From positions 1 through 28,215 of the IMG/VR virus record IMGVR_UViG_3300023172_000143: a DNA stretch of 28,215 bases; one strand, given 5' to 3'. The position numbers and the translations under genes are program-made. The notes beneath the pieces were generated by a model. The model was not told where the DNA came from and searched no databases. It saw only the letters and a list, made by a program, of their open reading frames with translations. This stretch comes from a virus. Positions 5,201 through 28,215 of the stretch are shown piece after piece (position 1 is the first letter of the stretch; each line of letters begins with the position of its first letter).

Positions 5201-8200
5201 CCATTTGGAACGCAAAGATTTGCAGCATTCAGCGAAGAAAATTATATTATTACTGTTCTAGATCCAGGCGATGCTCCAAGCATTGCAAAAGGTGATATCA
5301 TTTATGTTCCTACCGATGCTGTAGAAATTTCATCTTCTACTGATACTGCCAGTGGTCTCACTTCTGGATCTATTAGTCTACAACTAACATCTGATTATTT
5401 TGGAACCATTCCTTCCAATGGTGCGTTCCCTAAACTTAAGTTGACCGCAACCTTGGAAGTATCCAATGCAAAACCAAGACTTAAGACTGCCGTAAGAAAC
5501 AAGAGAATTGTTGTTACATCATCTGGTGACAGAGTTATTCCACTCAGAGGATCTGATTACGATACCGAAGTCATCGAAACTCTATCTTACTCCGATGTAT
5601 TCAAATTAAGATATGTCTACGAAGGAACTCCTTCCCAGGCTCCAGATGTTGATACTGCTGGAAATCTGGTATCTGGCACAGATGTAACTTCTCGTTATAC
5701 GTTCGATGACGGTCAGAGAGACACTGTATATGATGTTTCCAGACTAGTTCTCAAACCAGGATTTGAGGCATCTGTTGGTCAACTCGTGATTGCATTCGAT
5801 TACTTTGAGCAATCTCAAGGTGATTTTGTAACCATCGACAGCTATCTACATGAAGCAGGTGTCCCTGAAGATGAAATTCCTTCATTCAACTCACCTGTTC
5901 TTGGCAACGTAGAACTTAAGAACGTAATTGATTTCCGTCCTAAGGTAGACACAACAGCAATTATCCCAGGTTATCTTGACAAGTCTCTTCTAGAAGTTAC
6001 CGAAGGTTCGTTTGCTGGTCCTGGTGCTGTTGTATCAAGCACTCCTGCTCCAGATGCTGGTATCGAATATACATTCTCGTTCAGCCAAATCCAGTATCTT
6101 GATAGAATTGATGGAGTATTCTTGAACAAGAAGGGAGAGTTCCTAGTAAAAGAAGGTAACTCGTCTCTCAACCCATCCAAACCAGATCCTATTGAAGATG
6201 CTGTTCCTCTGTTCTATGCATATATTCCTGCTTACACTAAAACAAGCAAGGATGTAAGAATTACTCCAGTTGATAATCGCCGTTACACAATGCGTGATAT
6301 CGGCAAGTTGGAGAAGCGTATTGAGCGTCTTGAGTATTACACTACTCTCAGTATCCTTGAGCAGCAAGCTCTTAACATGCAAGTTAAGGATGAAGTAGGA
6401 CTTGACAGATTTAAGTCTGGTTTCTTCGTTGATAACTTCGAAGCACACTCTGTCGGTAACCTAACTTCACTAGACTATGCATGTGCTGTTGATCCTCAGC
6501 AATCCGTTCTTCGTCCACAATCAAAAGAAGACAGCATCAAACTAGTTGAGGTAAACGTAAGAGAAGATCAAAGAGCAGTTTCTGGTTATAAGAAAGTTAA
6601 TAATGTTGTCACACTACCATACTCGAATTTAAATCTCCTTGGCAATGGATTTGCATCGACAAACATCAATCCAAACCCATTTGTTGTTCTTCAGTATGTT
6701 GGTGATGGTGAACTATCTCCATCAATTGATCAGTGGTATGATCAATCAGAAGAACCACTAGTTGTTGATACAAATACAAGTCTCTTTAACATCTTCCTTG
6801 CAAAAGAGAACGTCAAGGAAAGTTTCTCCAGCATCCACAATTCTTTTGTAGTTAACTGGGTTGGTTCTTCCCCATCATTTACTGCTATCAATTCTTTAGG
6901 TGAAGTCAATAGTCAGCAGGCATCAACTAAAGTTAAGTCTGCTTCTGTTGCAAGTTCTTCTAATATCAGTCCACAGAACAATGATATTGGTAAAGGAATT
7001 CAGGCAAAAACTGTAAGGGGCAATCTGGTTTCCAATTCTCTATCATTCTTTGCAAGAAGTGTTCCTGTCAAGTATGTAATCAGAAGAATGAAGCCTAACA
7101 CCAAGATGTATGTCTTCTTGGAAGGTAGAGATATCAGTCGTTGGGTCAATCCTGATCTAAGATTTACTGGTATTGCTGGCAACTCTCTGTCTGCATTTAA
7201 TGGTCCTATCACCACTGATGAATATGGAAATGCATCTGGTTTGATCATTCTTCCTGCTGGTTATCCACCCATCGAAAATGCAACATGGGGAGGAAGTGTA
7301 GATACCGTATCGTATGACACAAACGCAGAAGAAGTATCAATTACATCTGGCATCTTAACGTTCAGATTTACTTCTAGTGCAACCAATGCACCCAAAGATG
7401 AAGTAGATAGCTACACTGAAGTTAAGTATTATGCTACAGGTATTCTCCCAGAGAACCCAGATAGCATTGTTTCTACAAAACCATCTTACTTCAAGTCAAA
7501 CGAAGGTGTTCAGTTAATCGAAAGCAATACTGACAATCCAGTCAGACCTAATCCATTGGCGCAAACTTTTAAGGTCGAGAACCTAGAGGGCGGTTGTTTT
7601 GTAACTGGCATTGATCTTTACTTCAGCAAGAAGAGCAGCAATATTCCAGTCAAGACGTATATTACTAATGTTGATGCAGAAAAACCAGGAAAGAATATTG
7701 TTCCTGGTTCCGAGAAAACTCTTTCTCCAAACACATTCCTTAAGTGTTATGCAAACGGTGACGTTGCAGTCTACAAGGGCGAGAGCGTAACTGGAGTAAG
7801 CTCTGCTGCTTCTGGTCCTATTCTCAAGATCTTTGACAAGAACAACGTAGAACTAGTCGCTTCTTCCTCTGGTAAGTATAGTCTAACTAATGAGCAAGTC
7901 TATACGTTTGTTCTAAGCAATCATAACGGTAAGTCATTTGTTCAAAATGAAGATCTGACTATTCCATCAGTGACCACGGCAAATGCTACTCAGGGAACTA
8001 CTGGAAAGATCACGATTGCTAAGGACAGTGGAAAAGTTTCTAAGGTCAGAGTTACTAACCCTGGTCAGAATTATGATAGTGCAATTCTAACTATTGAAAG
8101 TCCACAACTTCCTGGTGGTTCTACTGCTACTGCTGCAATTAAAGTCTCTGGCGGTAAGATCTACAATGCAGAAGTTTCACTCTCTGGTTTTGGATACACC

Positions 8201-10297
8201 GAAGCTCCTTCAGTCGTCGTCAAAGGCGTCGGAAATGGCGCTGGAGGATGCGAAATTCAAACCTTCATTGAGATTGACACACCTGCAGTTAGAATGGGCG
8301 TAGCGGTCGATAACGAAGGAGTTACGCAATCCACAACCCCAACACACTTTGCATTTGAATATCCAGTATACCTACAAAATGATACTGAGTATGCTCTGGT
8401 TGTAGAAACAGATTCAACAGATTATATGTTGTGGGCGTCGAAGTTGGGTGCTACTGATATTGCTACTAGCACCGTTATCACAACACAACCATCACTTGGT
8501 TCTGTTTATAAGTCACAGAATACTGAGAGTTGGACTGAAGATATCTTCGAGGATCTTAAGTTTGCACTATATCGTGCTGAATTTGACATCAGCAGACCAG
8601 CAGAACTTCTCCTTAAGAATGATAACTTGGGTTACGAACTTCTTGACTACAATCCATTTGAAACAAACGCTAGTGCAAACACTAACGCTACCTCAAAACT
8701 ATTCAAGAATAACAACTCAATCGTTAAGGTTTCCCATAGAGACCACGGATTTGAGACATCTGGTAAGTCGTATGTATTCTACAGAACTGCACAAGAAACT
8801 GGTGGTGTAACCGCCGATATCTTGAACAGCAATCTATTCAAGGTTGCAAACAGTGGTGTTGATACTTACAACATTACATCAACAGCAAATGCTTCTAGTA
8901 ATGCATTTGGTGGTGGAACAAATGTTTATGCATCACATAATAGAAAGTTCGAAACTCTATATCCTCAAGTCAACTACCTCTCATTTACTGGAACAAAACT
9001 TGAGAATTATGTAAAGACTACAAATGTGGTTCCTGTCGATTCGTCAACTACAAACTATACTTCATATTCGCAGACTGATTATGAAAGAACATTCTTGAAT
9101 GAACCACAATACTTCACTAACCAGAAGTTGATTGCATCCGAAATTAACGAGACACTCAATAACCTAGGTCAGTCATTGACATATAAAATGGTCATGACTT
9201 CTACTGTTTCTCACCTCTCACCGCTGATTGATCTTTCATCAGCATCTGTCAAGACATCTACGTCTAGAGTTGAGAATGCAAGTGGTCAAGAAGATAGATT
9301 TGGTAGAAGAGATCAAATTATCAAGTTCTACCCAGTATATCAATTCCAACTTGCTGGAAATGGCGGAACTGAAATTCAGGCTGGTCAGACAATTAAAGGA
9401 GTAACAACTAAAGCATCTGGAACTATTGCAAGAGTAAATGGTTCTGTTGTTTATGTCAGAGTTAAGACAGCACAGTTCTTCCAAATTGGAGAAACTGTTT
9501 CCTTGGGCAACCAAGCATCTCTAACTAATGTCACTGTCGATTCAAATCCAGTCGAATTGTTCTTCGATATCGCTGATGGCGCAACCATTGTTGCTAGAAA
9601 CCCATCGGTCATTCTCGAAACTTATGATAATAAGATCACTGGTAAAACAGTCCTTTGGAACAATAAGACCCAGGAATTGACACTAAGAGTTGATACCCAA
9701 CCAATCAGCAATGACTTCACTGGAAGAATTATTGACAATGTAGCATTTGCAAGAAACGCACAAACTTCTGAGCAAGTTTCTGATATCTTCCGTGTAGGAG
9801 ATTATGTCAAGTATGCTTCTCAGGATGACGTTGAAGCATCTTACTTGGAGGTAGGAAGCATTACATATTCCAATGGCATTGACTTTGTTTCCGAAGATTC
9901 TTCTAAGAACAGTTCTGCAGTTGCTAAGTATGTAACTAAGGAGGTTGCAATTGGTAATCCTGGAACATCTATTGATGTAAGACTTACCGCTAACATCAAG
10001 GATATCTCTAATATCAGAGTTCTCTACAGATTTAAGAAGGCATCCAGTCAAGAAAACTTCGAAGATATTGATTGGGAATACTTCAACTCTGATGGAGGTC
10101 CTGATAATTTAGAGATTGCATCCAGTGAGAACAGCATCTCTGGAACTGTTGAGAAGCAATCTTCATACCAAGAATTGAAGTATAGCGTTGCAGATCTTCC
10201 CGAGTTCTCTTCGTTTGCGGTCAAGATTGTAATGAAGACTGTTGACCCAGCATTCGCTCCTAAGGTTCAAGATATCAGAGCAGTAGCATCGTTCTAA
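2213..10297 (+). CDS. Giant DUF4815-type virion structural protein
   Basis: This is a 2,694-residue structural protein. The N-terminus (NPYYEDFDASKNFYKILFRP, then a GYSIQGRELTQVQSILQNQ segment) is the signature of the DUF4815 family found in T4-like cyanophages, where it lies near gp8 and is part of the virion. GSGY-type beta repeats occur near residues 740, 1946 and 1990. A short coiled coil (RDIGKLEKRIERLEYYTTL) is at about 1357-1380, followed by the SGFFVDNFEAHS motif. The segment RRMKPNTKMYVFLEGRDI is near 1622. From about 1780 a conserved C-terminal section runs LAQTFKVE, TGIDLYFSKK, then FEYPVYLQNDTEYALVVETD (about 2048) and TTQPSLGSVYKSQNTESWTE (about 2090). The exact role (baseplate rim, fibre base or tail-pin equivalent) is not known to me. 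Its place after gp8, where T4 has gp9 and gp10, suggests a baseplate-peripheral appendage. Other-frame ORFs within it are shadows. Confidence 0.9.
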   Translation: MPQKTNLNVNPYYEDFDASKNFYKILFRPGYSIQGRELTQVQSILQNQIESFGKYAFKQGEQVIPGEVGLNTKLDYVKLSSVSEVAVSEGDEIVYKKYDITQLLGQQLRGLTSGVVGTVLTAKLATESTADTIFVSYINSGNSNTESTFRQGETLEVVDGVNTPLLVVGTDGSVLPTSIQVTNPDTGEVTSLESPAMGFASAVKVQEGIYFVNGYFVRNEEQILVIEEYYDKPSAKVGFTIKEEIVTPEADASLYDNAIGSSNYTAPGAHRLKISLEMKEFALDAITDKNFIQLLTVKRGVVQRKVSTTDFSVLEQTLARRTFDESGDYVVDNFDIDVREWAQKDGNKGLYGADEFGLYNGYTASEASRKMVASIGPGKAYIKGYEIVNKETKYLEINKARESLTSDNVTLKTKGLPTFSITNVFGSVPLNKEGSDLTAYPDIFLYSTFSDGSIGVNGTEATTDHRQTISRRGLTFTANDAIRTITLDVLGLNGQPALGALTDANFQTEYKTLYFIKSRSADGTATDIGTVTTLAYATINRPGISDNENKQFLELTVFGNKAELENLLLEYDEGDSEKKRKIFLSNGDAQDNNDYWAEVVDYRNTITPVIGKVKPSNFFLKKRGEGFNSDSDVVLSKGRLSGGSETYNSIFGFSYFDPQFFTRILLETVPAGFDEGKYVFGLESGAYGVVEGPASGVYSTDRLLFVKTISGNFKSGETIRDEDSNTVKIAKDNTISHFIVIERGSGYSAGAEILLNGVTYDASKIEPTVYGGKIYKVAINNQAALRNLEFTQPPEIVVTGTTDSAGAAAVRAVLVRNAVTTYTPQNVKSIGGSYGSGGSNKFNADLVVDNQAYSNISAVTDYTFFGKKGTMFVESTSFSADASSILQQGDLIQFSDQDNNLVRATVQYATQAAGAAKTRIYLDTALPGDVTNTSIVRLRPRPENTNGGTLLFPTGSKQVEQISAGGDDTKIKYYFRRDFVTTASTSGGTITFAAQLPFGTQRFAAFSEENYIITVLDPGDAPSIAKGDIIYVPTDAVEISSSTDTASGLTSGSISLQLTSDYFGTIPSNGAFPKLKLTATLEVSNAKPRLKTAVRNKRIVVTSSGDRVIPLRGSDYDTEVIETLSYSDVFKLRYVYEGTPSQAPDVDTAGNLVSGTDVTSRYTFDDGQRDTVYDVSRLVLKPGFEASVGQLVIAFDYFEQSQGDFVTIDSYLHEAGVPEDEIPSFNSPVLGNVELKNVIDFRPKVDTTAIIPGYLDKSLLEVTEGSFAGPGAVVSSTPAPDAGIEYTFSFSQIQYLDRIDGVFLNKKGEFLVKEGNSSLNPSKPDPIEDAVPLFYAYIPAYTKTSKDVRITPVDNRRYTMRDIGKLEKRIERLEYYTTLSILEQQALNMQVKDEVGLDRFKSGFFVDNFEAHSVGNLTSLDYACAVDPQQSVLRPQSKEDSIKLVEVNVREDQRAVSGYKKVNNVVTLPYSNLNLLGNGFASTNINPNPFVVLQYVGDGELSPSIDQWYDQSEEPLVVDTNTSLFNIFLAKENVKESFSSIHNSFVVNWVGSSPSFTAINSLGEVNSQQASTKVKSASVASSSNISPQNNDIGKGIQAKTVRGNLVSNSLSFFARSVPVKYVIRRMKPNTKMYVFLEGRDISRWVNPDLRFTGIAGNSLSAFNGPITTDEYGNASGLIILPAGYPPIENATWGGSVDTVSYDTNAEEVSITSGILTFRFTSSATNAPKDEVDSYTEVKYYATGILPENPDSIVSTKPSYFKSNEGVQLIESNTDNPVRPNPLAQTFKVENLEGGCFVTGIDLYFSKKSSNIPVKTYITNVDAEKPGKNIVPGSEKTLSPNTFLKCYANGDVAVYKGESVTGVSSAASGPILKIFDKNNVELVASSSGKYSLTNEQVYTFVLSNHNGKSFVQNEDLTIPSVTTANATQGTTGKITIAKDSGKVSKVRVTNPGQNYDSAILTIESPQLPGGSTATAAIKVSGGKIYNAEVSLSGFGYTEAPSVVVKGVGNGAGGCEIQTFIEIDTPAVRMGVAVDNEGVTQSTTPTHFAFEYPVYLQNDTEYALVVETDSTDYMLWASKLGATDIATSTVITTQPSLGSVYKSQNTESWTEDIFEDLKFALYRAEFDISRPAELLLKNDNLGYELLDYNPFETNASANTNATSKLFKNNNSIVKVSHRDHGFETSGKSYVFYRTAQETGGVTADILNSNLFKVANSGVDTYNITSTANASSNAFGGGTNVYASHNRKFETLYPQVNYLSFTGTKLENYVKTTNVVPVDSSTTNYTSYSQTDYERTFLNEPQYFTNQKLIASEINETLNNLGQSLTYKMVMTSTVSHLSPLIDLSSASVKTSTSRVENASGQEDRFGRRDQIIKFYPVYQFQLAGNGGTEIQAGQTIKGVTTKASGTIARVNGSVVYVRVKTAQFFQIGETVSLGNQASLTNVTVDSNPVELFFDIADGATIVARNPSVILETYDNKITGKTVLWNNKTQELTLRVDTQPISNDFTGRIIDNVAFARNAQTSEQVSDIFRVGDYVKYASQDDVEASYLEVGSITYSNGIDFVSEDSSKNSSAVAKYVTKEVAIGNPGTSIDVRLTANIKDISNIRVLYRFKKASSQENFEDIDWEYFNSDGGPDNLEIASSENSISGTVEKQSSYQELKYSVADLPEFSSFAVKIVMKTVDPAFAPKVQDIRAVASF

Positions 10298-15927: not shown

Positions 15928-18900
15928 ATGAGTTTTCAGATAAATTCAGATAGAGAAAGAATTACTGGTGCTAAGACAAGCATTCTTGGCACAGATGAAG
16001 TAACTATTCGTTCTGGCGATGGAAATTTCGAAACTGAAATTTTTAGAGCGCAGTTAGATCCAGTAACTCGATTGCCACGTATTGGTATTAACAGATCTGG
16101 AAACAGAGTTGAAAGTATTGTTGTAACCAATGGTGGTTCTGGATATACACAGCAACCAACAGTAAACATTGATCCACCTCCAGCTGGTGGTCAGCAGGCA
16201 TTTGCTAGTGCTCAATTTTCCAATGGTGTTGTCACTGGTATTCTTGTCAACGATAGTGGTAGTGGATACATTACTGCACCAGGAGTAACAATTACTGGTG
16301 GAAATGGAAACGGTGCTACCGCAACATCAAATCTCGACACTATTGATTTTGAACTTGATGTTAATGGTGCTATTAGAACATCAACTTCTATCATTTCAGA
16401 TACTGCAAGAATTCTGAACATTGATATTGATAATGTTGTGACACCAGACCTTGTATTGAGAGGTCCAAACTTTAAAACTTACATGAACAATACTGGCACC
16501 GAATGGTTGCCAAGCACTAATATTGATGCTAACGAATATCGTTATTATGCTGGTAATGTTTACCAGACTTTAAATAGTGGAACAACTGCTAACCAAGCAA
16601 ATCCACCACTGCATACCGATGGAATTGAATTGAACGGCAACGTTCAAATGAAGCATATTGGTATTCGTGTTGATAACCCCGATGCTTTTGCATACAACGA
16701 AACTGGTGATGCGGGTGTCTTCCCACGATCTATCACACCTCTACTAGGAGATAGATCAGATAAGATTGCAACTACAGAATACGTCCTTAATCTAGCAACG
16801 AATGACGTTGGTGGTCGTATCTATGTTTCTGAGCAAATTGGTAATGATGCCAATGACGGTCGCTCGGCAGTAAACCCAGTTAGAACTATTAAGAGAGCAG
16901 CACAACTGGCGTGGGCTACTCCTGGCGTAAAGGAATCACTTATTGTCTCTGGTGGCAACTACATCGAAGATAACCCAATTTCACTACCACCCGATTGTTC
17001 GGTTGTTGGTGACAACCTTCGTCTTGTAATTATCAGACCAAACAATCCAAGAAAACACATCTTTAAGTTTGGCGATAAGAACTATGTTATTGGCGTAACA
17101 TATAGAGACTATGTTGATGCTGCCGATCGTTCAGTTCACACCTGGGATTATGCCATGGTGTTTGACGATAAGCAGAGAATGACATATGACGCTACCACTG
17201 GTGGCGACTTCCCTCTCAGCTTTCCAATTGGACACCAGATTTTTGGTCAACAAACATATAGATCAACCTTTGTATCCAACACTGGTTTAACAGCACTATC
17301 TGCTGGACAAGTTCTAGTTGGCGCAACTTCTTCCGCATTAGCAACTTCACTCACAGTTACATTTGATGAGACTGATACCAATGTAGCCGATCACCATGTG
17401 ACTGGCACAATGGACTTCAAAATTGATGCTGGTTCATTCTCATCTACTGACGTATTTAAATACGGTGGTGCAGGATCTAAATTGTATGCAAACGATATTG
17501 CATATGATCTTGGCGATATTGTTTGGACGCCAGATTATACTTATGAAGTAACTATTGCTGGCACTTCTCCTTCAGCTGGTGCTCCTACCCACTCTACTGG
17601 AGCTGTAACTCTAGGAACAGTTGAACTTACTTTTGTAAGAGAGACATATAGTTTCACATCACAAGACGTTATTTCAACTAGACCTGAAGGTGAAGTTGTA
17701 TTTACTGGAGAAGATAACGAAACTGTTCTCCCTATTACAAGAATTGACTTCAGTCTTCAAGGCACATTTACTGACGGATTTGGAGATCCTACTGCAGGAA
17801 TTTTTGGTCCAGAAGAAGATCTTGGTGGTATTGTTATCTACACAAACCAACTACTAGGTTTTGCAAATACTCACGATTATAAAGAAGGAGATGAAGTTTA
17901 TCTTTCTGGCATTCCTAGTCCAGAAGGTGATGTTCTTAATGGTTATCAAAGAATTTACAAAGTCTTAGAAGACGCCGATGGTCGAGCAAGACGATTTGTT
18001 ATTCCCAAAAAGATGCCAGCATCTGAAGGTTATGCAAATACTTCAGAGTATCTTCCTGGTGCAAATGCGTCTGTTAGATCTGCATCTAAGTCGGTTACAC
18101 TATCTCTCTTAAACTCACCAAACGAGTTCCCTGTAGCAACTCCTCTTGCTAGAAGATATCAAGATGCTTCACTACAAATTAGAAACAACTTAGACTTTAT
18201 CGCAGATGAAGTTGTAGGAAGAATTAACGAAGAGTTTGCTAAGTTCTATTATTCAGTATACGATGTTAACATTAATGGTGATGGTGATACTGAATTCAAG
18301 ATTTATCTAGGAACTTCGACATATGCACACACATATGTTAGTGGCGGCACAGTAACATATGGTGGAACTGTATACAACATTATTAATTTTGATTGGGAGA
18401 ACTTCACTACTGGAGTTGCTACGATTACATGTGCGCTAATGTCTCCTTCTCCTGCAGAAGATGACACTGTAAGAATTGATGATATCTTACTAAATTGCAG
18501 TCTTGGAGATAAAGAGTATCCAAGTTTCAGCATCCCTGTTAGCGACGACAAGTGCCGTAGAGACATCAAGCACTACCTCAATGCTATCTTAAGAGACCTA
18601 GAATTTGGTGGCAACTATAACGTCATCGATGCTGCTAAGAGATATGTTGAAGGAACACAGATTGGTCTTGTAGATACTGAGATCGTTCAGACAGTTCGTG
18701 CTTTAGAATACGCAAGAGAACTCGCCATTTATGCAATGCGTAAGTGGAGAACTGGAGATGATGGTTATGGTTCAACATACGTTAAGAAGTATACACAACT
18801 ATTCCCATATATTGATGCTACTGTCATCGATACAGACCCACAAACAGAACCAGAATCTTGTGCAAATGTAAGAGCTGCTATTGATACATTAGCATATCTC

Positions 18901-21900
18901 TTTGTCGATGTTGTTACCAATAACGCATCAGGAACATATCTAGATGCTGGTTATTTGATTGCAAGAAACAGACATCTCATTGCCGATGAAGCATACAAGA
19001 GAGCGATTGCACAGTATCCATCCCTAGCACTAACTGATGTTCAAGAGAGAAAGTGCCGTAGAGATATCAACTATGTTATTACTGGATTACTAAGAGACTT
19101 AGTTTTAGGTGGCAATGCTGGTATTGTTGGTGCTGCTGAAAGTTATTATTCTGGAACTGCTCTCGCTGGTATTCCTGCTGGTCAATTAGATGCCACTGTA
19201 TACGCATTCCAGCAAGCAAGAGACTTATTCATCCAAGCGATGCGTAACTGGTCTGATGGAACGATTGCCGAAGTATCTCCACTAAGTGCTACTTATAACT
19301 CAACCACTGGTGAAGTAACGGTATCTTTCCCAGATCCCACAACTGCTCCAACTACTTCTGACAGAGTTGCATTCAAGGAAGGAGCACTAACATTTAACTG
19401 TGCATCTAACGGTGGTGGAGATCTAGCAAGTCCAGTAGAAGGAGATGCTAACTTTGGTAGAAGTCAACCCATTACCAATGTTTCATCTGCTGGTGGTGTG
19501 ACAACTATCACATGTAACGTTGGAGATGCTGGCACTGCTGCTGGTGTTGCACACACATTCGTAAGCGCACTTGCTAACGGAACTATCCTCATTTATGATC
19601 CCGTAATTCCAGCAAACTCTACAATTCCAACGTTTGAAGACTGGAATATTCTAACATATGGTTCAAATCCACTATGTGCTAACGTAGAATCCACCATCAC
19701 AACTGCGATGGCGTTGTTTGAGGATATTCTAGATGGATCGATTGTTCCTGGTGGAACTATCAGAACATATGGAACTCTATATGTTACAGATAATATAATC
19801 TCATATCCAACTGGAACACTTTATGATGCTGAGGGTAGGATCTTTACACCAAGATCTGATTATGATGATTATCCAATTATTGAAGCATCACCATATACTC
19901 AGAACTCTTCTGTTATCTCTTTCCTAGGTGGTAGTGGTGCTCTAATTGATGGATCTAGAGTTAAGCAACCAAACTGTCCAAAGCCTGGTCTTGAGGCAGA
20001 TCAAAGCGCAACATTCCCCAACCAGGGTAAGTCAATGGTTGCTTCTGCATTCACCATTGTCTCCCAAGGTGGTAATTCTACTGGATATAGAATTACCAAT
20101 GATGGATATGTTCAGTTGGTTTCTGTATTCTGTATTTTCTGTGCAGACGGTGTTATTGCCGAAAGTGGTGGTTATGCATCTATCACCAACTCTGCTACCA
20201 ACTTTGGTGGTGCTGCTCTAAGAGCAACTGGATATAGAGATGAAGCATATATATTTGACTCTGGTAATGGCACAGGTACTGGTTTTGTAAGGGCAACAGT
20301 CTCTAGCATGGTTGCTACCATCACAAACAGAACTGAAGTCGCTGTTACTGGTCTTGGCAGAGCTCCACTTGAGCATTACATCTTCAAGATTGACGGATAC
20401 GAACCAGAAGATCCAGATATCGAATACTTTATCGACAGCATTGATGCTACCAGTGTTTCTAACTCTGCTCCTTTTGCTGCAAGATTTATTCTTTCAGATG
20501 GAACTGGAACTGGACCCGCATCATTCAGAGATAAAGCAACTGGAACTATTGTTGATCCAATTAACCTCGTTGATTATCACCTTGCTAACTATGGTGGTGT
20601 TCCAACATTTGCTCTACACAGACCATCTATCGTTAACTCTTCTTCCCACACTTGGGAATTTGCTGGTTCTGGAACAGACTACAATGCGCTACCAGAGAAC
20701 GGTGGCACCAAAGTAGAATCGCAGGAACAGGTTTCTGAAGGATATGGTCGTGTTTATGTCTCTGGTACTGATGAACTTGGAGACTTCAAGGTTGGAACGT
20801 TTGCACAGATTGAAAACAGAACTGGTAATATCACCTTTACTGGAACGGTTACCATCTCCGAAGTTGAATTCCTCAAACTGAAAGGTGGGGACGTTGTTGT
20901 TACTGGTTTCGATGCATCTTCTACTCTTGGAGGATCTGGTGCTTCTAACTCCAAATTACCAACACAAAAGGCAGTTAGAGACTTCATCACCAACAACCTT
21001 GGTGCATATCTAAACAAACCATATTCAACAAACCCAATCCCCAGAGCTCTGGTTGAACTTACAGATTCTGGTAAGATCTCAGAAGACCAACTTCCTGCAG
21101 TTAAACCATTTACTGTATACACAGTTGGTGATGAAACAGAAAGACTGGCGATTGAAGGTGCGCTCGCAGGTTCTATTGCTATTCAGCAAGATAATAACTC
21201 TTCCTGGATCCTTAATAATGACGTAGATAGTTTGTTTGTAACGTTTGACGTTGATCCAACCATTCAATTCACTCTTGGTGATATCTTCACTGGTGAGTTT
21301 AGAGATGATGGCGCAACTCCTGGATCTGGATCACGTATTCAAGCAACAGAATACAGAACTGGTGTTCTGTATTCTATCACATTAACTGATCCTGGTTCTG
21401 GATATGTTACTGCTCCAACTATTACAATCACTGGTGGTAATCCTGGATCTGGTGCTGTTGCTGCTCAAGCATCATGTACAATTGCTGGTGGTGAAGTTGT
21501 AACTATTACCATTGAACTCTTCAATGGATACTATGGCGGTAAAGGATATACCACACCACCTCAGATTACATTCTCGGCACCTCCTGGATCTGGAACAACT
21601 GCTCAGGCAGATGCTCTGATTGAAAGCAGATTGTATGGTGATATTGTCAATGCCATTAAGATGGTTGAGACTGATAGTATCTTGACAAGTGACACACCAG
21701 CGGTAAGAGTTCCTATTGATAGAGTTGTTAATACATCTGCTTCTGATCTCAATAACTGGGTATCTCTATCTGCACAAAGTATTGCTGCTAATGATATTAC
21801 ATCTGGTGTTATTTCAACTGCTAGACTTGCTCAAAACTCTGGTGCTGCAAACTCGTTTACATTCCTCAGAGGAGATTCCTCCTTCGCTCTAGCAGTTCAA

Positions 21901-24900
21901 TCAATAAAGGGTGCTGAAACAAGATACTTTGGAGCACTCTCATCTTCATCTCCAACTAACTCACAATCTCTTGAGTTTCCAGCAAGTGGTAACTACGTTA
22001 TTGGACACCAATTAGTTGAAAGGAATGGTGTTCCTGCAGATACTTACATTAGCGCAGTATTGACGGAAGGAAATACTACGACCGTAACAATTGACCAAGC
22101 ATTAACAGCGACACTACCAGCTGGAACAGTTCTTGAATTTGATAGGGGTTCATCTCCTGTGCTATTTGATGCATCATATACTCAGGGTGAATTTATTGAT
22201 GACATTGTTATTGTTAATGGTGGATCTGGATATGCTTCCGATTTGGGAGGAAACAACACCTTTAATGGAGTAGAACTCTTCGGTCCACAAGGAACTGCTG
22301 GATCTGGATTAAAAGCAACTATCAAGGTTGAAGGTGGTGTAATCACAACTGTTATTGTTACTGATAGTGGATCTGGATATACTGATGACTTTACTTGCCT
22401 AACTCCAGCAATTCTTGGTAATGGAACTGGTCTTTCACTTGCTGCTAAAGTATCTACTGTTAACAGAAACTATGCAAACGTTTCTATTGACGTTGCCAGA
22501 GCAGGCGGCGAAGGATCCACAATCAGTACCGATCCATATGGAACGGTGGGTGTTGTTAGACTGAAGAAATCTCAGTTTAATATTGGTGTAGACGGAAATG
22601 GTTCCGTAGAACTCAAGACTGGTATTGGTAGTGGTCTAAACGCAGACTTCCTCGATGATAGAGACGGTTTGTTCTATCAGACCGCAACCAACCAGCTGTA
22701 TGGTGTTCTTCCTAGAGGAAGATTGGATGGAGACTACGATATCAGTATCACTGGCACCGCAGATGATGCTAAGATTTTGAATGTTGCTAATGACCAGAGC
22801 ACTGCAACTGTTCAGCAATCCCCAACTCTCTATATTGAGGGTATGTCAGCTGAGAGTAAGTTTAACAATGCAAACATCACTGGATCTTCCACAAACTACT
22901 CTCTATATGCTGCTTGGCCAGAAGTTGGTTTAAACTCACAGCAGACTGGTGGTAACGTAGGAAGACACTTCTTGGTGACTATGAGACCTGGCGGAACATC
23001 CGCTGATACCACATATGGTGGTCTCAAGCAATTGGCATTCTCCGATGATAATAGCATCGGAACAAATATGTATCTTCGTGGTACAGGATTTGGTGTTACC
23101 ACTTGGAAAGACTGGGCAAAAGTTTGGACTTCTTCCAACGATGGTGATGGTTCTGGATTGGATGCTGATAGATTAGATGGAAAGCAATTATCTTGGGTAA
23201 CTGATGTAACACATCACAACGAAGGCACCATGTTTGACACAAGGTTGCCAGGTTTCATGAGCGCCAAAGTATTTGATGAAAAGATTGAAGTTGCAGAACC
23301 ACTAGCAACATCACAAAATGCTGCACTCAATGGAAAGAAAGCATACAGAATTCTATTTGATGGAGTTCTTCTAGACGCTGCTGAATACGGAACCATTTTT
23401 AGTAACGGAACCACTATTAACATGTATGATATCACTGGTGCTCAAGCACTAGGATCTCTATACATCGTCACCATGACGCCATATCCAGATGCAAATGATC
23501 CAACCAATAACTATTCCGAAATTATTGGTGTTCTTGTAACTGGTACAACAATTGATGGTAGTGTTCAGTTTGGTTTAGCAAACAGCCCAGCAGTAACTAA
23601 GTATGCAAAGTGGACTGATTATTCGCTAGCAGATTATAACACGGGTGTTGGTGCTACATTAGAGGTTGTTTCTGGAACTGCAAACCTCAAGTTAGGTAAG
23701 AGAGTTGCTGGTAATACAGCAACCTCTCCTGGAATTTACTTCAGTTCCAGTGCTTCACCTGCACCAAACTACAACTCCGCTATTGTAGCATCTGCTGGTT
23801 CTACTACAGATGGAAGCGGACAACTAAACGTAATTGTTGGTGGAACTACCGCATTTACAGTTAATAGCAACCCAGTATACCATCAGGGCAATACAGTCTT
23901 CACAGATGGCATTGGACAGTCAACATATAATGCTCAAAATGTTCTAACACTAAGAAACGCAGTAATGCGTGATGAGACTGGTAGCTTTGAAGCACATAAG
24001 ATTACTCTAGTAACTTACACAGATCCTAGTAATAATGTAATTCCTGGTCAGATTATTGGTGCAGCATCACTCAACGTCCTTAAGGCGGGTGATGACATGA
24101 CAGGAACTCTCAACATCCTCAATTCTGGGGGTGCTGGAGATCCTACATCTGATCTATATGTTCAGGGTGATATTTCAACAGACCTTACAATGTCTGTTGG
24201 AACTGACCTTACAGTCGGAACTAATGTTCTATTTGTAGATCAGTCTGAGGGAAGTGTTAATATTGGCACTGCTACACATGCTGAGGGAATTAAGTTACAA
24301 GTAAATGCTGGATCTTCAGTAGCAGAAGCTCTTATCACTGGTGGTGGTGGCAATATTGCATCTACACTATCATTTGAGCACCAAGGTGGTGGTAGCAGAA
24401 CCGAAGTAAATGGTAGATGGAACATCGGTTTCGGTTCGGCAGAAAGTGATTTTGGTTCAACTGCTCAAACAGTTGCTGCTACAGAAGGTCTATACTTCTG
24501 GCATTTTGATAGTTCAACAGAAACTACAAATGTTCCTCTGATTGCTAGAAGAGACAAAGAGGTTATTGTAACTGGCAGACTTGGTGTTGCTGGTCGTGCA
24601 GGAACATACACATTAAATGTTAAAGGCAATGCATATGTAGACACCAGTATCCAAATCAGTGATAACGCTAACAATGATGGCGCAACATTATTGTTCACGG
24701 GTGCTGATGGTGGAACTGCAGGCGATGGAGATGGTCTCTATAACTATAGACTTTCTAACCAGACATTTGGAGATGGTATCTTTGCTATTCAACCAAACAT
24801 CTTTACTGGTGCTGGTGCTGGTGCTACCGCATGGGATGCAACACCTGCTATCGCTATTCGCGGTAGGAAAGTTGCTATCAACACCGATGAATTTAGTGGA

Positions 24901-25338
24901 ATTGATGAGACTGATGCTCAAAATCCAATCAATAGAGACTATCAGTTAAATGTTCAGGGCGATATCAATATTAATGGTATTTTATACCAAGATAATGCAC
25001 CATTTGTTACTTCAAGATGGACTGAAGCAGCAACAACATTATTAGACCCAAATAACATTATTAAAGATATCTACAGACTATCTGCTGTTGGTATCAATCA
25101 ACCTCAACCAGCATATCCATTAGATATTGAAGGAGATGCTAACCTAACTGGAAAACTTTACGTCAAGGGTGTAGCACAGTGGTTAGATAGTGGCGGTATC
25201 ATTAGAACTGCAGCAAATCTTATTGATGAGGATGTAAATATTCAAGCAAACTTAACCGCTGTAAGTTTTGGTAGAATTGAACTAAATACTGGTAGAACCA
25301 TGACAATTGGTTCTGGAGCAGTTTGGAAGATTATCTGA
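15928..25338 (+). CDS. Giant tail-fibre-like protein, 3,136 residues
   Basis: This is probably a long tail fibre or whisker component. GSGY beta repeats lie near residues 68 and 109. The phage-fibre motif LGDRSDKIATTEYV is near 271. The segment RIYVSEQIGNDANDGRSA with VNPVRTIKRAAQLA (from about 296) is typical of the start of a pectin-lyase-like beta helix. A helical repeat (KCRRDI...LRDL..GGN...AMR.W) occurs twice, at about 876 and 1043. A VGTFAQIENRTGNITF segment is near 1622, followed by NSKLPTQKAVRDFI near 1674. Further GSGY repeats lie near 1821, 1870, 2097 and 2146. The C-terminal third has T4-fibre-like signatures: GLNADFLDDRDG (about 2235), SGLDADRLDG (about 2410), VYHQGN (about 2650) and LKAGDDMTGTL (about 2718). 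No S74 chaperone catalytic motif is seen at the end, so tip function may lie in the following genes. The N-terminal anchor would face the baseplate (inference). Confidence 0.88.
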   Translation: MSFQINSDRERITGAKTSILGTDEVTIRSGDGNFETEIFRAQLDPVTRLPRIGINRSGNRVESIVVTNGGSGYTQQPTVNIDPPPAGGQQAFASAQFSNGVVTGILVNDSGSGYITAPGVTITGGNGNGATATSNLDTIDFELDVNGAIRTSTSIISDTARILNIDIDNVVTPDLVLRGPNFKTYMNNTGTEWLPSTNIDANEYRYYAGNVYQTLNSGTTANQANPPLHTDGIELNGNVQMKHIGIRVDNPDAFAYNETGDAGVFPRSITPLLGDRSDKIATTEYVLNLATNDVGGRIYVSEQIGNDANDGRSAVNPVRTIKRAAQLAWATPGVKESLIVSGGNYIEDNPISLPPDCSVVGDNLRLVIIRPNNPRKHIFKFGDKNYVIGVTYRDYVDAADRSVHTWDYAMVFDDKQRMTYDATTGGDFPLSFPIGHQIFGQQTYRSTFVSNTGLTALSAGQVLVGATSSALATSLTVTFDETDTNVADHHVTGTMDFKIDAGSFSSTDVFKYGGAGSKLYANDIAYDLGDIVWTPDYTYEVTIAGTSPSAGAPTHSTGAVTLGTVELTFVRETYSFTSQDVISTRPEGEVVFTGEDNETVLPITRIDFSLQGTFTDGFGDPTAGIFGPEEDLGGIVIYTNQLLGFANTHDYKEGDEVYLSGIPSPEGDVLNGYQRIYKVLEDADGRARRFVIPKKMPASEGYANTSEYLPGANASVRSASKSVTLSLLNSPNEFPVATPLARRYQDASLQIRNNLDFIADEVVGRINEEFAKFYYSVYDVNINGDGDTEFKIYLGTSTYAHTYVSGGTVTYGGTVYNIINFDWENFTTGVATITCALMSPSPAEDDTVRIDDILLNCSLGDKEYPSFSIPVSDDKCRRDIKHYLNAILRDLEFGGNYNVIDAAKRYVEGTQIGLVDTEIVQTVRALEYARELAIYAMRKWRTGDDGYGSTYVKKYTQLFPYIDATVIDTDPQTEPESCANVRAAIDTLAYLFVDVVTNNASGTYLDAGYLIARNRHLIADEAYKRAIAQYPSLALTDVQERKCRRDINYVITGLLRDLVLGGNAGIVGAAESYYSGTALAGIPAGQLDATVYAFQQARDLFIQAMRNWSDGTIAEVSPLSATYNSTTGEVTVSFPDPTTAPTTSDRVAFKEGALTFNCASNGGGDLASPVEGDANFGRSQPITNVSSAGGVTTITCNVGDAGTAAGVAHTFVSALANGTILIYDPVIPANSTIPTFEDWNILTYGSNPLCANVESTITTAMALFEDILDGSIVPGGTIRTYGTLYVTDNIISYPTGTLYDAEGRIFTPRSDYDDYPIIEASPYTQNSSVISFLGGSGALIDGSRVKQPNCPKPGLEADQSATFPNQGKSMVASAFTIVSQGGNSTGYRITNDGYVQLVSVFCIFCADGVIAESGGYASITNSATNFGGAALRATGYRDEAYIFDSGNGTGTGFVRATVSSMVATITNRTEVAVTGLGRAPLEHYIFKIDGYEPEDPDIEYFIDSIDATSVSNSAPFAARFILSDGTGTGPASFRDKATGTIVDPINLVDYHLANYGGVPTFALHRPSIVNSSSHTWEFAGSGTDYNALPENGGTKVESQEQVSEGYGRVYVSGTDELGDFKVGTFAQIENRTGNITFTGTVTISEVEFLKLKGGDVVVTGFDASSTLGGSGASNSKLPTQKAVRDFITNNLGAYLNKPYSTNPIPRALVELTDSGKISEDQLPAVKPFTVYTVGDETERLAIEGALAGSIAIQQDNNSSWILNNDVDSLFVTFDVDPTIQFTLGDIFTGEFRDDGATPGSGSRIQATEYRTGVLYSITLTDPGSGYVTAPTITITGGNPGSGAVAAQASCTIAGGEVVTITIELFNGYYGGKGYTTPPQITFSAPPGSGTTAQADALIESRLYGDIVNAIKMVETDSILTSDTPAVRVPIDRVVNTSASDLNNWVSLSAQSIAANDITSGVISTARLAQNSGAANSFTFLRGDSSFALAVQSIKGAETRYFGALSSSSPTNSQSLEFPASGNYVIGHQLVERNGVPADTYISAVLTEGNTTTVTIDQALTATLPAGTVLEFDRGSSPVLFDASYTQGEFIDDIVIVNGGSGYASDLGGNNTFNGVELFGPQGTAGSGLKATIKVEGGVITTVIVTDSGSGYTDDFTCLTPAILGNGTGLSLAAKVSTVNRNYANVSIDVARAGGEGSTISTDPYGTVGVVRLKKSQFNIGVDGNGSVELKTGIGSGLNADFLDDRDGLFYQTATNQLYGVLPRGRLDGDYDISITGTADDAKILNVANDQSTATVQQSPTLYIEGMSAESKFNNANITGSSTNYSLYAAWPEVGLNSQQTGGNVGRHFLVTMRPGGTSADTTYGGLKQLAFSDDNSIGTNMYLRGTGFGVTTWKDWAKVWTSSNDGDGSGLDADRLDGKQLSWVTDVTHHNEGTMFDTRLPGFMSAKVFDEKIEVAEPLATSQNAALNGKKAYRILFDGVLLDAAEYGTIFSNGTTINMYDITGAQALGSLYIVTMTPYPDANDPTNNYSEIIGVLVTGTTIDGSVQFGLANSPAVTKYAKWTDYSLADYNTGVGATLEVVSGTANLKLGKRVAGNTATSPGIYFSSSASPAPNYNSAIVASAGSTTDGSGQLNVIVGGTTAFTVNSNPVYHQGNTVFTDGIGQSTYNAQNVLTLRNAVMRDETGSFEAHKITLVTYTDPSNNVIPGQIIGAASLNVLKAGDDMTGTLNILNSGGAGDPTSDLYVQGDISTDLTMSVGTDLTVGTNVLFVDQSEGSVNIGTATHAEGIKLQVNAGSSVAEALITGGGGNIASTLSFEHQGGGSRTEVNGRWNIGFGSAESDFGSTAQTVAATEGLYFWHFDSSTETTNVPLIARRDKEVIVTGRLGVAGRAGTYTLNVKGNAYVDTSIQISDNANNDGATLLFTGADGGTAGDGDGLYNYRLSNQTFGDGIFAIQPNIFTGAGAGATAWDATPAIAIRGRKVAINTDEFSGIDETDAQNPINRDYQLNVQGDININGILYQDNAPFVTSRWTEAATTLLDPNNIIKDIYRLSAVGINQPQPAYPLDIEGDANLTGKLYVKGVAQWLDSGGIIRTAANLIDEDVNIQANLTAVSFGRIELNTGRTMTIGSGAVWKII
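18541..19260 (+). repeat. Duplicated CRRDI helical module inside the fibre gene
   Basis: Two copies start with the Cys codons at 18553 and 19054, exactly 167 codons apart. Each reads KCRRDI, LRDL, GGN, AA...Y..G, ARxLxIxAMRxW, then a CANV- or NVES-type helix about 25-50 residues later. The DNA encoding KCRRDI is almost identical in both copies (AAGTGCCGTAGAGA followed by c/t ATCAA). This suggests an internal duplication with a constrained motif. The module is strongly helical in an otherwise beta-rich protein. Confidence 0.75.
25282..25288 (+). promoter_or_regulatory. Possible late promoter inside the end of the fibre gene
   Basis: CTAAATA within the coding sequence ends 59 bases before the ATG at 25348. 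The gap between these genes is only 9 bases, so a promoter for the next gene would have to lie inside the fibre gene. The distance is longer than for the intergenic copies, so it may be coincidental. Confidence 0.35.
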
Positions 25339-25347
25339 TTTATACCA

Positions 25348-26208
25348 ATGGCAAGATATTATTCATCTAGATTTCAATCAGAAAGAATTAATTCTTCTGA
25401 TGCATTGCAAGTCCCCATCTACGAAAACGACCAAGACCTCTTGGATGGTGAAGATGGGGAAATGATGTATATTGAAGGTCAGATGCAATATTATTATAAT
25501 GGATCTTGGCAAAACATCAAAGTAAAAAGAAGAGATGGAAGTTCAGCTGCGTCTGCTGCTTTAAATGCAACTGATTTAAAATCAACTCTCGGAGCAAATG
25601 CTGTTAATGGATCATATTGGTATCAATTCAATGATGGATCACAGCAACAACTTTGGACAGACTTCACATCATATGCTCCATATAATTTTGTAATGGTTCA
25701 AAGAACCAGCAATACTACAAATTCTCAATATCAAACTGGATCATTAAATCCTACAGATCTTGCATTAGCTCCAAATGATACTGCACCAACACAAGTTGCA
25801 AAATTATCAGATTTGAATCAAAGGGACATTACTACCAGTGGAACTGTTCGATGGGTTATTGCTGGCGCTGGTCAGATGTGGTATAAAATGGTAGGAGATC
25901 CAGATTGGTATTCTGATTTTGGAGTTGCTGCTTGTTGCTCATGTAATAATCCAAATTTTTATGATGGATATGCTACTCCATCATCAACTCCTATTTGGGA
26001 ATCTGGAATTATTCATAATGGTGGTTGTGGTGGCGGACAAAATAGTGCTGGCGGATGGCTAGTCCTCTCTGGTATTCACCTTAATGATAATAACTACCTA
26101 GGTGGTTATAATGGAGCCTCTACTGGAGTTGGTTCAACTATTTCTCCGTATCTGTGTGGCGGTGGCACAGGTTGGGGTCTCAATGGTTATGTTTTGATGT
26201 CTTGGTAA
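25348..26208 (+). CDS. Candidate fibre-tip protein with fibrinogen-like features
   Basis: This 286-residue protein starts 9 bases after the fibre stop. Residues about 1-60 hold a short anchor with DGEMMYIEGQMQYYYNGSWQ, the same 'G...YN..W' module as the next two proteins. From about 75 the segment SYWYQFNDGSQQQLW, then YNFVMVQR, recalls the start of fibrinogen C-terminal domains (Y-W-I ... GGGWTLVQR). The end, GWGLNGYVLMSW, fits a compact lectin-like fold. Five Cys residues (196, 197, 199, 227, 270) sit in the Gly/Asn-rich last third (AACCSCNN; GGCGGG; YLCGGG), unusual compared with neighbouring proteins. It may be a receptor-binding tip carried by the giant fibre. The fibrinogen relation is a by-eye resemblance and uncertain. 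No Shine-Dalgarno sequence is obvious. Confidence 0.8.
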   Translation: MARYYSSRFQSERINSSDALQVPIYENDQDLLDGEDGEMMYIEGQMQYYYNGSWQNIKVKRRDGSSAASAALNATDLKSTLGANAVNGSYWYQFNDGSQQQLWTDFTSYAPYNFVMVQRTSNTTNSQYQTGSLNPTDLALAPNDTAPTQVAKLSDLNQRDITTSGTVRWVIAGAGQMWYKMVGDPDWYSDFGVAACCSCNNPNFYDGYATPSSTPIWESGIIHNGGCGGGQNSAGGWLVLSGIHLNDNNYLGGYNGASTGVGSTISPYLCGGGTGWGLNGYVLMSW

Positions 26209-26214
26209 TAAATA
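26207..26214 (+). promoter_or_regulatory. Late promoter motif before the first glycine-rich gene
   Basis: AATAAATA matches the T4 late octamer except at the first base. It overlaps the TAA stop (26206-26208) of the preceding gene and ends 25 bases before the ATG at 26240. Confidence 0.65.
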
Positions 26215-26239: not shown

Positions 26240-27262
26240 ATGGGAATTTTAAATGTTGGTATTTCAAAAGCGAACTCATCTATATTGCTGCCACAAATTT
26301 CAACGGCACAAAGAAATGCCCTACCGCCAGAAAAAGGACACATAATTTTCAATACAGATGATTTTGAAGTTCAATTCTACAACGGAGTAGAGTGGAAAAA
26401 TGCAGGAGCTGCTCCATTTGAAGCAAATGGTGGAACAGTGACAGATGTTGGCGGATATAGAATTCATACTTTCACTGGAGATAATGCGTTTAACGTTACC
26501 GCTGGAACTGGACTTGTAGAATACCTAATTATCGCTGGAGGCGGTGGCGGAGGCGGCTGGGGCGGCGGCGGAGGCGCTGGTGGTTATAAATCCTCTGTTC
26601 AAGGAGAATTATCTGGTGGTGCAACAACAGCAGAAGGAGCTTTATTAGTAGAAGTAGGATCATATTCAGTTAAAGTTGGTCAAGGAGGATCAAGAGGAAC
26701 TACTGCATACACTGGAGGTGGTGCTGGTGGAGATTCTTGGATTATTGGTCCTGGCGGAATTAATATCACATCTTTAGGTGGAGCTGGTGGCGGTTGGTGG
26801 CAAGGTAATGTTCCTCCAGTAGGTGGTTCTGGTGGTGGTGGATCAGGAACTGGCAATGGTTCTGCGGGAACTGCTGGTCAAGGAACTGCTGGAGCTGCTG
26901 GTCAAGGTAATCAATCTAGTCCTTATCTAGGTCATGGTGGAGGTGGAGGAGCTGGTCAAGCAGGATCTCAAGGTTCTGGTGTTACTGGCGGTAAAGGTGG
27001 AGATGGTTTGACCTCCGCTATCACTGGATCTGCTGTTCAACGTGGCGGTGGCGGTGGCGGACACTCCCCTGGATTGGGCAATAGTGCCACTTCTGTTGGA
27101 GGCGCTGGCGGTGGCGGTGGTGGTGGAAACTACTACAACGCAGCACAAGCAGAAGATGGTCAGGAAAATTATGGAGGTGGAGGTGGAGGAAACTATGGAG
27201 ATAGTTCTAGACTATGTGGTCTTGGTGGAAAGGGTGTTGTTATTATTAGATACCCAATCTAA
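26240..27262 (+). CDS. Glycine-rich adhesin-like fibre-tip protein, copy 1
   Basis: This 340-residue protein has an N-terminal part (1-55) with LPQISTAQRNALPPEKG, IIFNTDD and FYNGVEWKNAG, an attachment-type module shared with the neighbours. After a short beta region (YRIHTFTGDNAFNVT) comes VEYLIIAGGGGGGGWGGGG, the start of the glycine-rich domain seen in many phage and bacterial surface proteins. About 230 residues of Gly-rich blocks follow (GGAGGGWWQGNVPPVGG; GHGGGGGAG; GGGGGGHSPGLGN). It closes with GGKGVVIIRYP, the usual end of that domain. Poly-Gly blocks of this sort form polyglycine-II helices in the gp38 adhesin of T4-like Salmonella phage S16. Receptor binding is therefore a reasonable inference. 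It is paralogous to the next gene. Confidence 0.85.
   Translation: MGILNVGISKANSSILLPQISTAQRNALPPEKGHIIFNTDDFEVQFYNGVEWKNAGAAPFEANGGTVTDVGGYRIHTFTGDNAFNVTAGTGLVEYLIIAGGGGGGGWGGGGGAGGYKSSVQGELSGGATTAEGALLVEVGSYSVKVGQGGSRGTTAYTGGGAGGDSWIIGPGGINITSLGGAGGGWWQGNVPPVGGSGGGGSGTGNGSAGTAGQGTAGAAGQGNQSSPYLGHGGGGGAGQAGSQGSGVTGGKGGDGLTSAITGSAVQRGGGGGGHSPGLGNSATSVGGAGGGGGGGNYYNAAQAEDGQENYGGGGGGNYGDSSRLCGLGGKGVVIIRYPI
26777..26849 (+). repeat. 73-base perfect repeat, copy 1 (second copy at 27841-27913)
   Basis: These 73 bases are identical to 27841-27913 and encode GGAGGGWWQGNVPPVGGSGG plus the following GGSG in both glycine-rich genes. A second identical pair is 26684-26727 with 27751-27794 (44 bases). 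Identity at third codon positions points to recent duplication or gene conversion. Confidence 0.9.
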
Positions 27263-27265
27263 ATA
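27259..27265 (+). promoter_or_regulatory. Late promoter motif before the second glycine-rich gene
   Basis: CTAAATA contains the TAA stop (27260-27262) of copy 1 and ends 20 bases before the ATG at 27286. Confidence 0.65.
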
Positions 27266-27270
27266 CTACA

Positions 27271-27275
27271 AGAGG
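27271..27275 (+). promoter_or_regulatory. Shine-Dalgarno AGAGG for glycine-rich copy 2
   Basis: AGAGG lies 10 bases before the ATG at 27286. It fixes the start of this gene, which runs off the window. Confidence 0.6.
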
Positions 27276-27285
27276 TTTTACTTTC

Positions 27286-28215
27286 ATGTCTAAAATTGTT
27301 GCTGATCAATTAAATGCTACAGAAGCATATAAAGTCCCTAGTTATACAGAAGCACAAAGAGATGCTTTAACTGGAGTTGAAGAAGGATTTTTAATTTACA
27401 ATGATACTTCGGAGCAACTAGAACTTTATTATGCTGGGGAATGGAGAAATATTGGAAACGTAACACAAGCAGGTGGCGGCGGCATTGAAGCTGTTGGAGG
27501 ATCAGTATCAACTTCTGGTGCTTATAAAATTCACACATTTGCAAATGATGATACTTTCACAGTTTCTTCTGGTGGAGGAGAGATTGAATACCTAGTTATC
27601 GCTGGAGGCGGCGGCGGAGGCGGCTGGGGCGGAGGCGGTGGTGCTGGAGGATACCGCAATTCTGTTCTCGGTGAGCAATCTGGCGGAGCAACAGCTGCAG
27701 AATCTAGAGTTACCGTTCAAGAAGGAACCTATTCAATCAAAGTTGGAATTGGAGGATCAAGAGGAACTACTGCATACACTGGAGGTGGTGCTGGCGCGGA
27801 TTCTTCTATCATTGGTCCTGGAGTAAATATTATTGCAAAAGGTGGAGCTGGTGGCGGTTGGTGGCAAGGTAATGTTCCTCCAGTAGGTGGTTCTGGTGGT
27901 GGTGGATCAGGAAGTGGTAGTGGTTCTCAAGGAACTGCTGGTCAAGGAACTGCTGGAGCTTCTGGTCAAGGTAATCAATCTGGTCCTTATCTAGGTCATG
28001 GTGGAGGTGGTGGTGCTGGTCAATCTGGATCCCAAGGTTCTGGTGTTATTGGTGGTAAAGGTGGAGATGGTTTGATTTCTCTTATTACGGGTCAAGCGAT
28101 TACTAGAGGCGGTGGAGGTGGTGGACACTCTCCTGGTCTAGGTAATGCAGGAAAATCTATTGGAGGCGCTGGTGGTGGCGGTGGTGGTGGAAACTACTAC
28201 AACGCAGCACAAGCT
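27286..28215 (+). CDS. Glycine-rich adhesin-like fibre-tip protein, copy 2 (3' end outside window)
   Basis: This frame is open for 310 codons to the window edge. It begins MSKIVADQLNATEAYKVP, then YTEAQRDALTGVEEG, FLIYNDTSE and YYAGEWRNIG, paralleling the anchor of copy 1. After IEYLVIAGGGGGGGWGGGG it follows copy 1 block for block (GGSRGTTAYTGGGAG; GGWWQGNVPPVGG; GQGNQSGPYLGHGGGGGAG; GGGGGGHSPGLGN; GGGNYYNAAQA). By alignment with copy 1, about 45 residues including GGKGVVIIRYP should lie beyond the edge. The N-terminal 100 residues have diverged clearly, while the Gly-rich core is nearly the same, also at DNA level. It is probably a second receptor-binding tip, and the array may continue downstream. 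Confidence 0.85.
   Translation, partial: MSKIVADQLNATEAYKVPSYTEAQRDALTGVEEGFLIYNDTSEQLELYYAGEWRNIGNVTQAGGGGIEAVGGSVSTSGAYKIHTFANDDTFTVSSGGGEIEYLVIAGGGGGGGWGGGGGAGGYRNSVLGEQSGGATAAESRVTVQEGTYSIKVGIGGSRGTTAYTGGGAGADSSIIGPGVNIIAKGGAGGGWWQGNVPPVGGSGGGGSGSGSGSQGTAGQGTAGASGQGNQSGPYLGHGGGGGAGQSGSQGSGVIGGKGGDGLISLITGQAITRGGGGGGHSPGLGNAGKSIGGAGGGGGGGNYYNAAQA
27841..27913 (+). repeat. 73-base perfect repeat, copy 2
   Basis: Partner of 26777-26849; the same reading phase is used in both genes. Confidence 0.9.

Follow-up and report, generated by a model that had tools for sequence, protein, structure and literature searches.

Genomic context of the two genes

The window, that is, the whole stretch of DNA analysed here, is one entire IMG/VR virus contig, 28,215 bases long, and its source is a T4-like marine cyanophage. 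Its gp8 (305-2116) is 92.4% identical to that of Synechococcus phage S-WAM2, a member of the Kyanoviridae, and its gene content is that of the T4-like cyanophage tail region, with gp8, a VrlC-like protein, virion proteins and a tail fibre. S-WAM2 has a gene of likewise 8085 bp at the position of the VrlC-like protein, annotated 'virulence-associated structural protein'. On the 3' side of the large fibre gene lie a 286-aa gene and then two adjacent paralogues, called A and B here (Table 1); both lie in the slot for host recognition that separates the tail fibre from the neck gene gp13.

Table 1. Features of the window discussed in the text
Feature	Position	Strand	Evidence or remark
VrlC-like protein	2213-10297		PHROG 358
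Cyanophage tail fibre, 3136 aa, landmark upstream of the slot	15928..25338	+	PHROG 5342 tail fiber protein
286-aa neighbour, N-terminal module related to B, other C-terminal part	25348..26208	+	Orthologues in L004, L005
TAAATA late-promoter-like motif before A	26209..26214	+	31 bp 5' of start codon; also in L004, L005
Paralogue A, 340 aa: N-terminal mount, predicted TNF-like beta-sandwich, glycine-rich loops	26240..27262	+	ORF; PHROG 2295, E 4e-56
A residues 1-98, mount and first beta-strands, orthologous history	26240..26533	+	N-terminal site counts
A glycine-rich loop, residues 99-115, homogenised	26534..26584	+	Pooled loop counts
A residues 116-147, scaffold strands of mostly orthologous history	26585..26680	+	Pooled scaffold counts
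A glycine-rich loop, residues 148-163, homogenised	26681..26728	+	Contains 44-bp exact match 26684-26727
A scaffold strands, residues 164-179	26729..26776	+	Predicted strands, site counts
A glycine-rich loops, residues 180-254, homogenised	26777..27001	+	Nearly all of 74-bp exact match 26776-26849
A scaffold strands, residues 255-269	27002..27046	+	Predicted strands, site counts
A glycine-rich loop, residues 270-304, homogenised	27047..27151	+	Contains 41-bp exact match 27110-27150
TAAATA late-promoter-like motif before B	27260..27265	+	26 bp 5' of start codon; also in L004, L005
Paralogue B, 310 aa visible, truncated by contig end	27286..28215	+	ORF; PHROG 2295, E 2e-39
Core of B, corresponding to A residues 99-304	27601..28215	+	A/B alignment, exact matches

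An earlier reading of the sequence alone had described two adjacent genes with glycine-rich cores and strongly different N-termini, and this description held. Both ORFs are present; their DNA identity is 50.3% in alignment columns 1-66 and 82.1% in columns 106-311, and the amino-acid identity is about 31% in columns 1-66 versus 79-86% in the core. As judged by the membership of both genes in PHROG 2295, a family of unknown function, the N-termini are diverged homologues and not unrelated sequences. A matched the Pfam domain Gly_rich_2 (PF21722) with 51.2 bits, above the curated cut-off of 24.3 bits. B of the window reached 23.5 bits, slightly under the cut-off, because it is truncated at the contig end; its complete orthologues of 346 aa (L004:7049-8089 and L005:7048-8088) scored 46.5 and 45.4 bits, above the cut-off.

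The longest exact DNA matches between A and B measured 74, 44, 41, 30, 28, 22, 20 and 20 bp, all at corresponding positions; of the two perfect stretches reported earlier, the 44 bases were right and the 73 are really 74. The 41-bp repeat lies at 27110-27150 in A and at 28174-28214 in B. The contig end falls one base past the latter copy, the near-identical L003 contig ends within A, and assemblies of the slot probably break at glycine-rich repeats.

The TAAATA motif precedes both genes. It was not enriched across the whole window (22 observed, 23.7 expected); on the plus strand, 9 of 17 copies fell in the 70 bp that precede gene starts, stretches that make up 2.2% of positions. The 286-aa neighbour shares 36% identity with B over 55 aa and had no PHROG match, and its structure model (pLDDT 31) was discarded.

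Relatives and copy number

Three relatives (L003, L004 and L005) were found in viral contigs. When the viral contigs were searched with A, with the A/B alignment, with the mount of A or with the L005 copy of B, the same three came back and no others; the B mount found the contigs of L004 and L005 together with one distant mount match (L048), and the 286-aa gene found the L003 contig alone. L003 is identical to the window across its 6806 bases and stops inside A. In both relatives that continue past A (L004 and L005), the A/B order and exactly two copies are kept, in the order fibre, 284-aa gene, A (340 aa), B (346 aa) and PHROG 7759 gene. Beyond these follow a 221-aa gene, with a DUF6445 match in L004, where it was tested, one more small gene, and then the neck genes, whose names, from gp13 on, we took from the annotated cyanophage genes that they resemble. 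Both relatives have two copies, with an unchanged set of genes after them, so there is no growing array, and the count of copies downstream and across relatives spoke against the copy-number cassette that had been proposed from the sequence.

Of 16 loci, counted after near-identical ones among the 20 examined had been merged, 6 had a small 'MAHFA' protein right beside the glycine-rich gene (L004:8116-8619, L005:8123-8632, L015:8817, L055:7065, L057:6059 and, on the upstream side, L056:4581). It belongs to PHROG 7759 (unknown function) in the four cases tested and, as a guess, could be a fibre chaperone or companion.

Glycine-rich ORFs (120 aa or longer, more than 20% glycine) occurred in 16 of 36 fibre-linked loci, and in 8 loci two such ORFs stood in tandem; several of these loci are near-identical contigs. 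The slot of S-WAM2 holds three different small 'tail fiber' paralogues, and other cyanophages have Fibrinogen_C-type or glycine-rich heads in the slot or nearby; a slot gene of S-CAM4 (L060:17145), for example, had a Fibrinogen_C match. Related N-terminal modules were found repeatedly on different heads in slot genes. The glycine-rich proteins of S-CAM8 (L053:5854-7032) and S-TIM4 (ORF_41) share about 65% identity over their first 176 residues and had no match after that at the threshold used, where low-complexity filtering might mask one; the pattern suggests head exchange. Roseobacter phage CRP-143 (L056:4959-7307; annotated Autographiviridae) also carries a neighbouring pair of glycine-rich genes, which share just one exact match of 19 bp. 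Several annotated 2OG-Fe(II) oxygenase genes cluster beside fibre genes, downstream of the slot, in published cyanophages (L053, L055, L057 and L058).

Two histories within each gene

The history of the paralogues was examined with A and B from three genomes (the window, L004 and L005), compared as three genome pairs; the pairs are not independent, and the pattern is known from these three genomes only. In columns 1-66, the residue sites in favour of orthology numbered 17, 19 and 31 for the three genome pairs, and those in favour of pairing within the genome 0. At silent sites of columns 106-311, summed over two core segments, the relation was reversed, with 22 to 4, 30 to 4 and 21 to 5 sites in favour of within-genome pairing.

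All 105 unrooted trees were compared by the AU test. For columns 1-105 the best tree splits A from B, and within-genome pairing was rejected (p 1.7e-42). For columns 106-311 the best of the 105 trees joins A with B inside each genome; orthology was rejected, marginally when all positions were used (p 0.049) and with p 0.0004 at third positions. When the 15 possible pairs were ranked by silent core matches, the three within-genome pairs took ranks 1-3 (68, 61 and 57 of 100). Fixed residue differences between A and B numbered 19 in columns 1-66, 4 in columns 67-105, and 1, an indel, in the 206 columns 106-311.

When synonymous codons were shuffled within each gene, the observed excess at silent sites was reached in 0 of 1000 shuffles for every genome pair, so shared codon habits are not the explanation. 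Permutation of the longest run within single pairs gave weak results (104 of 5000 for the window pair, 565 and 545 of 5000 for the others), and for this reason we relied on topology, quartets and shuffles. Another clade, in which two glycine-rich genes (372-378 and 471-475 aa) stand in tandem, sampled in 4 of 6 contigs (L030, L033, L035 and L036), served as negative control. It retains orthologous cores, with 58, 72, 76, 59, 59 and 122 residue sites in support of orthology versus 0 or 1 in support of within-genome pairing.

Because each mount is orthologous across the three genomes, A and B predate the split of these genomes. The loops are closer within a genome than to their orthologues, silent sites included, which means that intragenomic recombination has exchanged them repeatedly. 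Likeness within the genome at silent sites and an orthologous flank (columns 1-105), the two marks of concerted evolution, were found together, and on this sequence evidence the cores are judged to evolve in concert by gene conversion. The mosaic that the sequence-only reading had proposed to look for across relatives was thus present, with columns 1-105 orthologous and columns 106-311 grouped by genome.

Conversion in loops and scaffold

We then compared the segments of A listed in Table 1. In residues 1-98, sites in favour of orthology and of within-genome pairing stood at 52:4, 57:9 and 88:3 in the three genome pairs. In the pooled glycine-rich loops the counts were 5:31, 4:41 and 1:31 (silent sites alone, 2:19, 1:29 and 0:21), and in the pooled scaffold 13:10, 13:7 and 21:7. 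The contrast between loops and scaffold gave Fisher p values of 0.0011, 6.5e-06 and 2.7e-09, and at silent sites alone 0.15, 0.0026 and 1.5e-05, the first of which is not significant. The borders were taken from predicted strands when the mosaic was already known, so the contrast is a pattern awaiting confirmation and not a blind test. Glycine makes up 50% of the homogenised segments and 21% of the scaffold. Within these bounds, conversion appears to have acted most strongly on the glycine-rich loops and only weakly on the predicted beta-scaffold. The earlier suggestion that gene conversion is focused on the putative binding domain is supported by the trees, the silent sites, the codon shuffles and the loop counts.

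Predicted fold and comparison with known fibres

The AlphaFold2 model of A was of moderate confidence (pLDDT 75, pTM 0.74), with some loops and residues 1-22 under 50. It could be superimposed on the Pam3 fibre gp24 (7ypx) with a VIA-align Z of 13.2 and an rmsd of 3.0 over 178 residues at 28% identity, and it matched the Bxb1 tail tip protein with the same Z of 13.2. A search of the PDB by sequence gave no match at E 1. The match to the glycine-rich domains of ALK/LTK was weaker than that to the Pam3 fibre (Z 6.3-8.8); this was read as a likeness of architecture, which the Pam3 paper also notes for ALK, and not of function. The model is consistent with the glycine-rich, adhesin-like fold supposed earlier: A and B would each end in a TNF-like sandwich with a glycine-rich head like that of Pam3 gp24.

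According to the Pam3 study, gp24 (PDB 7ypx, 7yfw) has a TNF-like domain with glycine-rich loops, and host binding is proposed to take place at the distal tips of these loops (PMC9608196); the predicted model of A has the same sandwich and loops. As described there, gp24 differs in having its own N-terminal helical bundle, where A has a short N-terminal module with predicted strands, and in having a dedicated chaperone, gp25 (PMC9608196). In residues 1-98 of the A model, whose confidence is low in residues 1-60, no helix of at least 4 residues was present. No gp25-like gene was recognised here; the gene after B in L004 and L005 was classed by its match to PHROG 7759, and no tail-fibre chaperone was identified. 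A further difference is that there are two paralogues here.

The analogy with gp37/gp38 drawn earlier proved to be a loose one, for which the Pam3 fibre gp24 is the better structural match. In T-even phages gp38 caps gp37; among the PHROG matches there was no gp37 homologue next to A and B, whose neighbours are the PHROG 5342 fibre and the 286-aa gene. What is shared with gp38 of T-even phages and S16 is the presence of glycine-rich motifs in a receptor-binding head, and S16 gp38 is set beside gp24 in the accessible text of the Pam3 paper (PMC9608196). S16 gp38 (6F45, a three-layer glycine lattice) was absent among the structural matches listed for the A model.

The slot that holds A and B corresponds to the host recognition cluster described for cyano- and pelagimyophages, a set of variable genes with host-binding domains between VrlC and gp14; homogenised tandem paralogues are not mentioned in the part of that report available to us (PMC7029224). 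For Vequintavirinae, two very similar short tail fibre paralogues are described with one presumed receptor, a precedent for fibre paralogues serving one receptor, and conversion between them is not described in the accessible text (PMC8594841). Intragenomic recombination has a precedent in another cyanophage fibre: the mutations of S-TIM4 ORF108, a YadA-domain fibre, were attributed by the authors to recombination with identical stretches lying close by in that genome (PMC6224464). That case differs in that the recombination took place inside one fibre gene and in the laboratory, whereas here it would have occurred between paralogues and over lineages. Among the papers listed for gene conversion or concerted evolution in receptor-binding or tail-fibre paralogues of phages, none was recognised as describing such a case.

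Discussion

Our preferred explanation, to which we give a probability of about 0.7, is that A and B encode paralogous late tail adhesins: the divergence of their mounts is old, and their binding loops are kept alike by recombination. The sequences themselves show the recombination; adhesion, a place in the virion and any benefit are what we infer.

The strongest alternative accepts the conversion and regards it as neutral: similar glycine-codon DNA recombines, and matching heads bring no benefit. T4-type phages have high recombination rates, and the homogenised segments are indeed much richer in glycine than the scaffold. Segments without glycine codons between the glycine runs, such as the WWQ-NVP segment, were homogenised too, which argues weakly against it. 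We consider neutral conversion quite possible, at rather less than an even chance.

It is unlikely that A and B are tail or capsid decorations, or proteins outside the virion, instead of adhesins. Such a role would suit a family of unknown function like PHROG 2295, but the genes sit behind a tail fibre, the predicted fold is that of a fibre head, and other cyanophage genes of the slot match Fibrinogen_C.

Very little speaks for the view that there was no recombination and that parallel evolution, through the same receptor and shared codon habits, made the cores of one genome alike. The cores are constrained and their loops are half glycine, as this view would have it, but silent loop sites show the same pattern, the codon shuffles never reproduced it, and the comparison clade, glycine-rich too, is without homogenisation. 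The least credible view, suggested by the near-identical stretches when the window was judged alone, is that one gene was recently duplicated in tandem and that the N-termini then diverged rapidly; against it, the diverged N-termini are each orthologous in the three genomes.

Under the preferred explanation, in which recombination maintains the likeness of two old adhesin paralogues, the events might be as follows. The mounts of A and B, which had already diverged when the three genomes split, have stayed apart; long identical runs of glycine codons would seed recombination between the genes, and sequences needed to fit each mount would remain distinct. The phage would then present one receptor-binding surface at two attachment points, and a change in one head could pass to the other. 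That gene conversion through glycine-codon tracts serves to keep the receptor-binding loops matched and so spreads receptor changes is a tentative proposal, which we hold at somewhat under even odds. In phage Mu, invertible tail fibre genes provide alternative heads on one mount, and two mounts with one head would be the mirror image of that arrangement. The switching of host range suggested from the sequence is not indicated, since homogenised heads resemble each other and a pair of alternative specificities would be the reverse of this.

In most discussions, phage adhesins figure as targets of diversification. The recombination signal in A and B is one of homogenised binding loops in three lineages, with the mounts held apart. 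Should this homogenisation be adaptive, it would reveal how a phage that has several adhesins adjusts all of them together to a changing host receptor, and the glycine-rich head would form a natural cassette for recombination, traceable in cyanophage populations.
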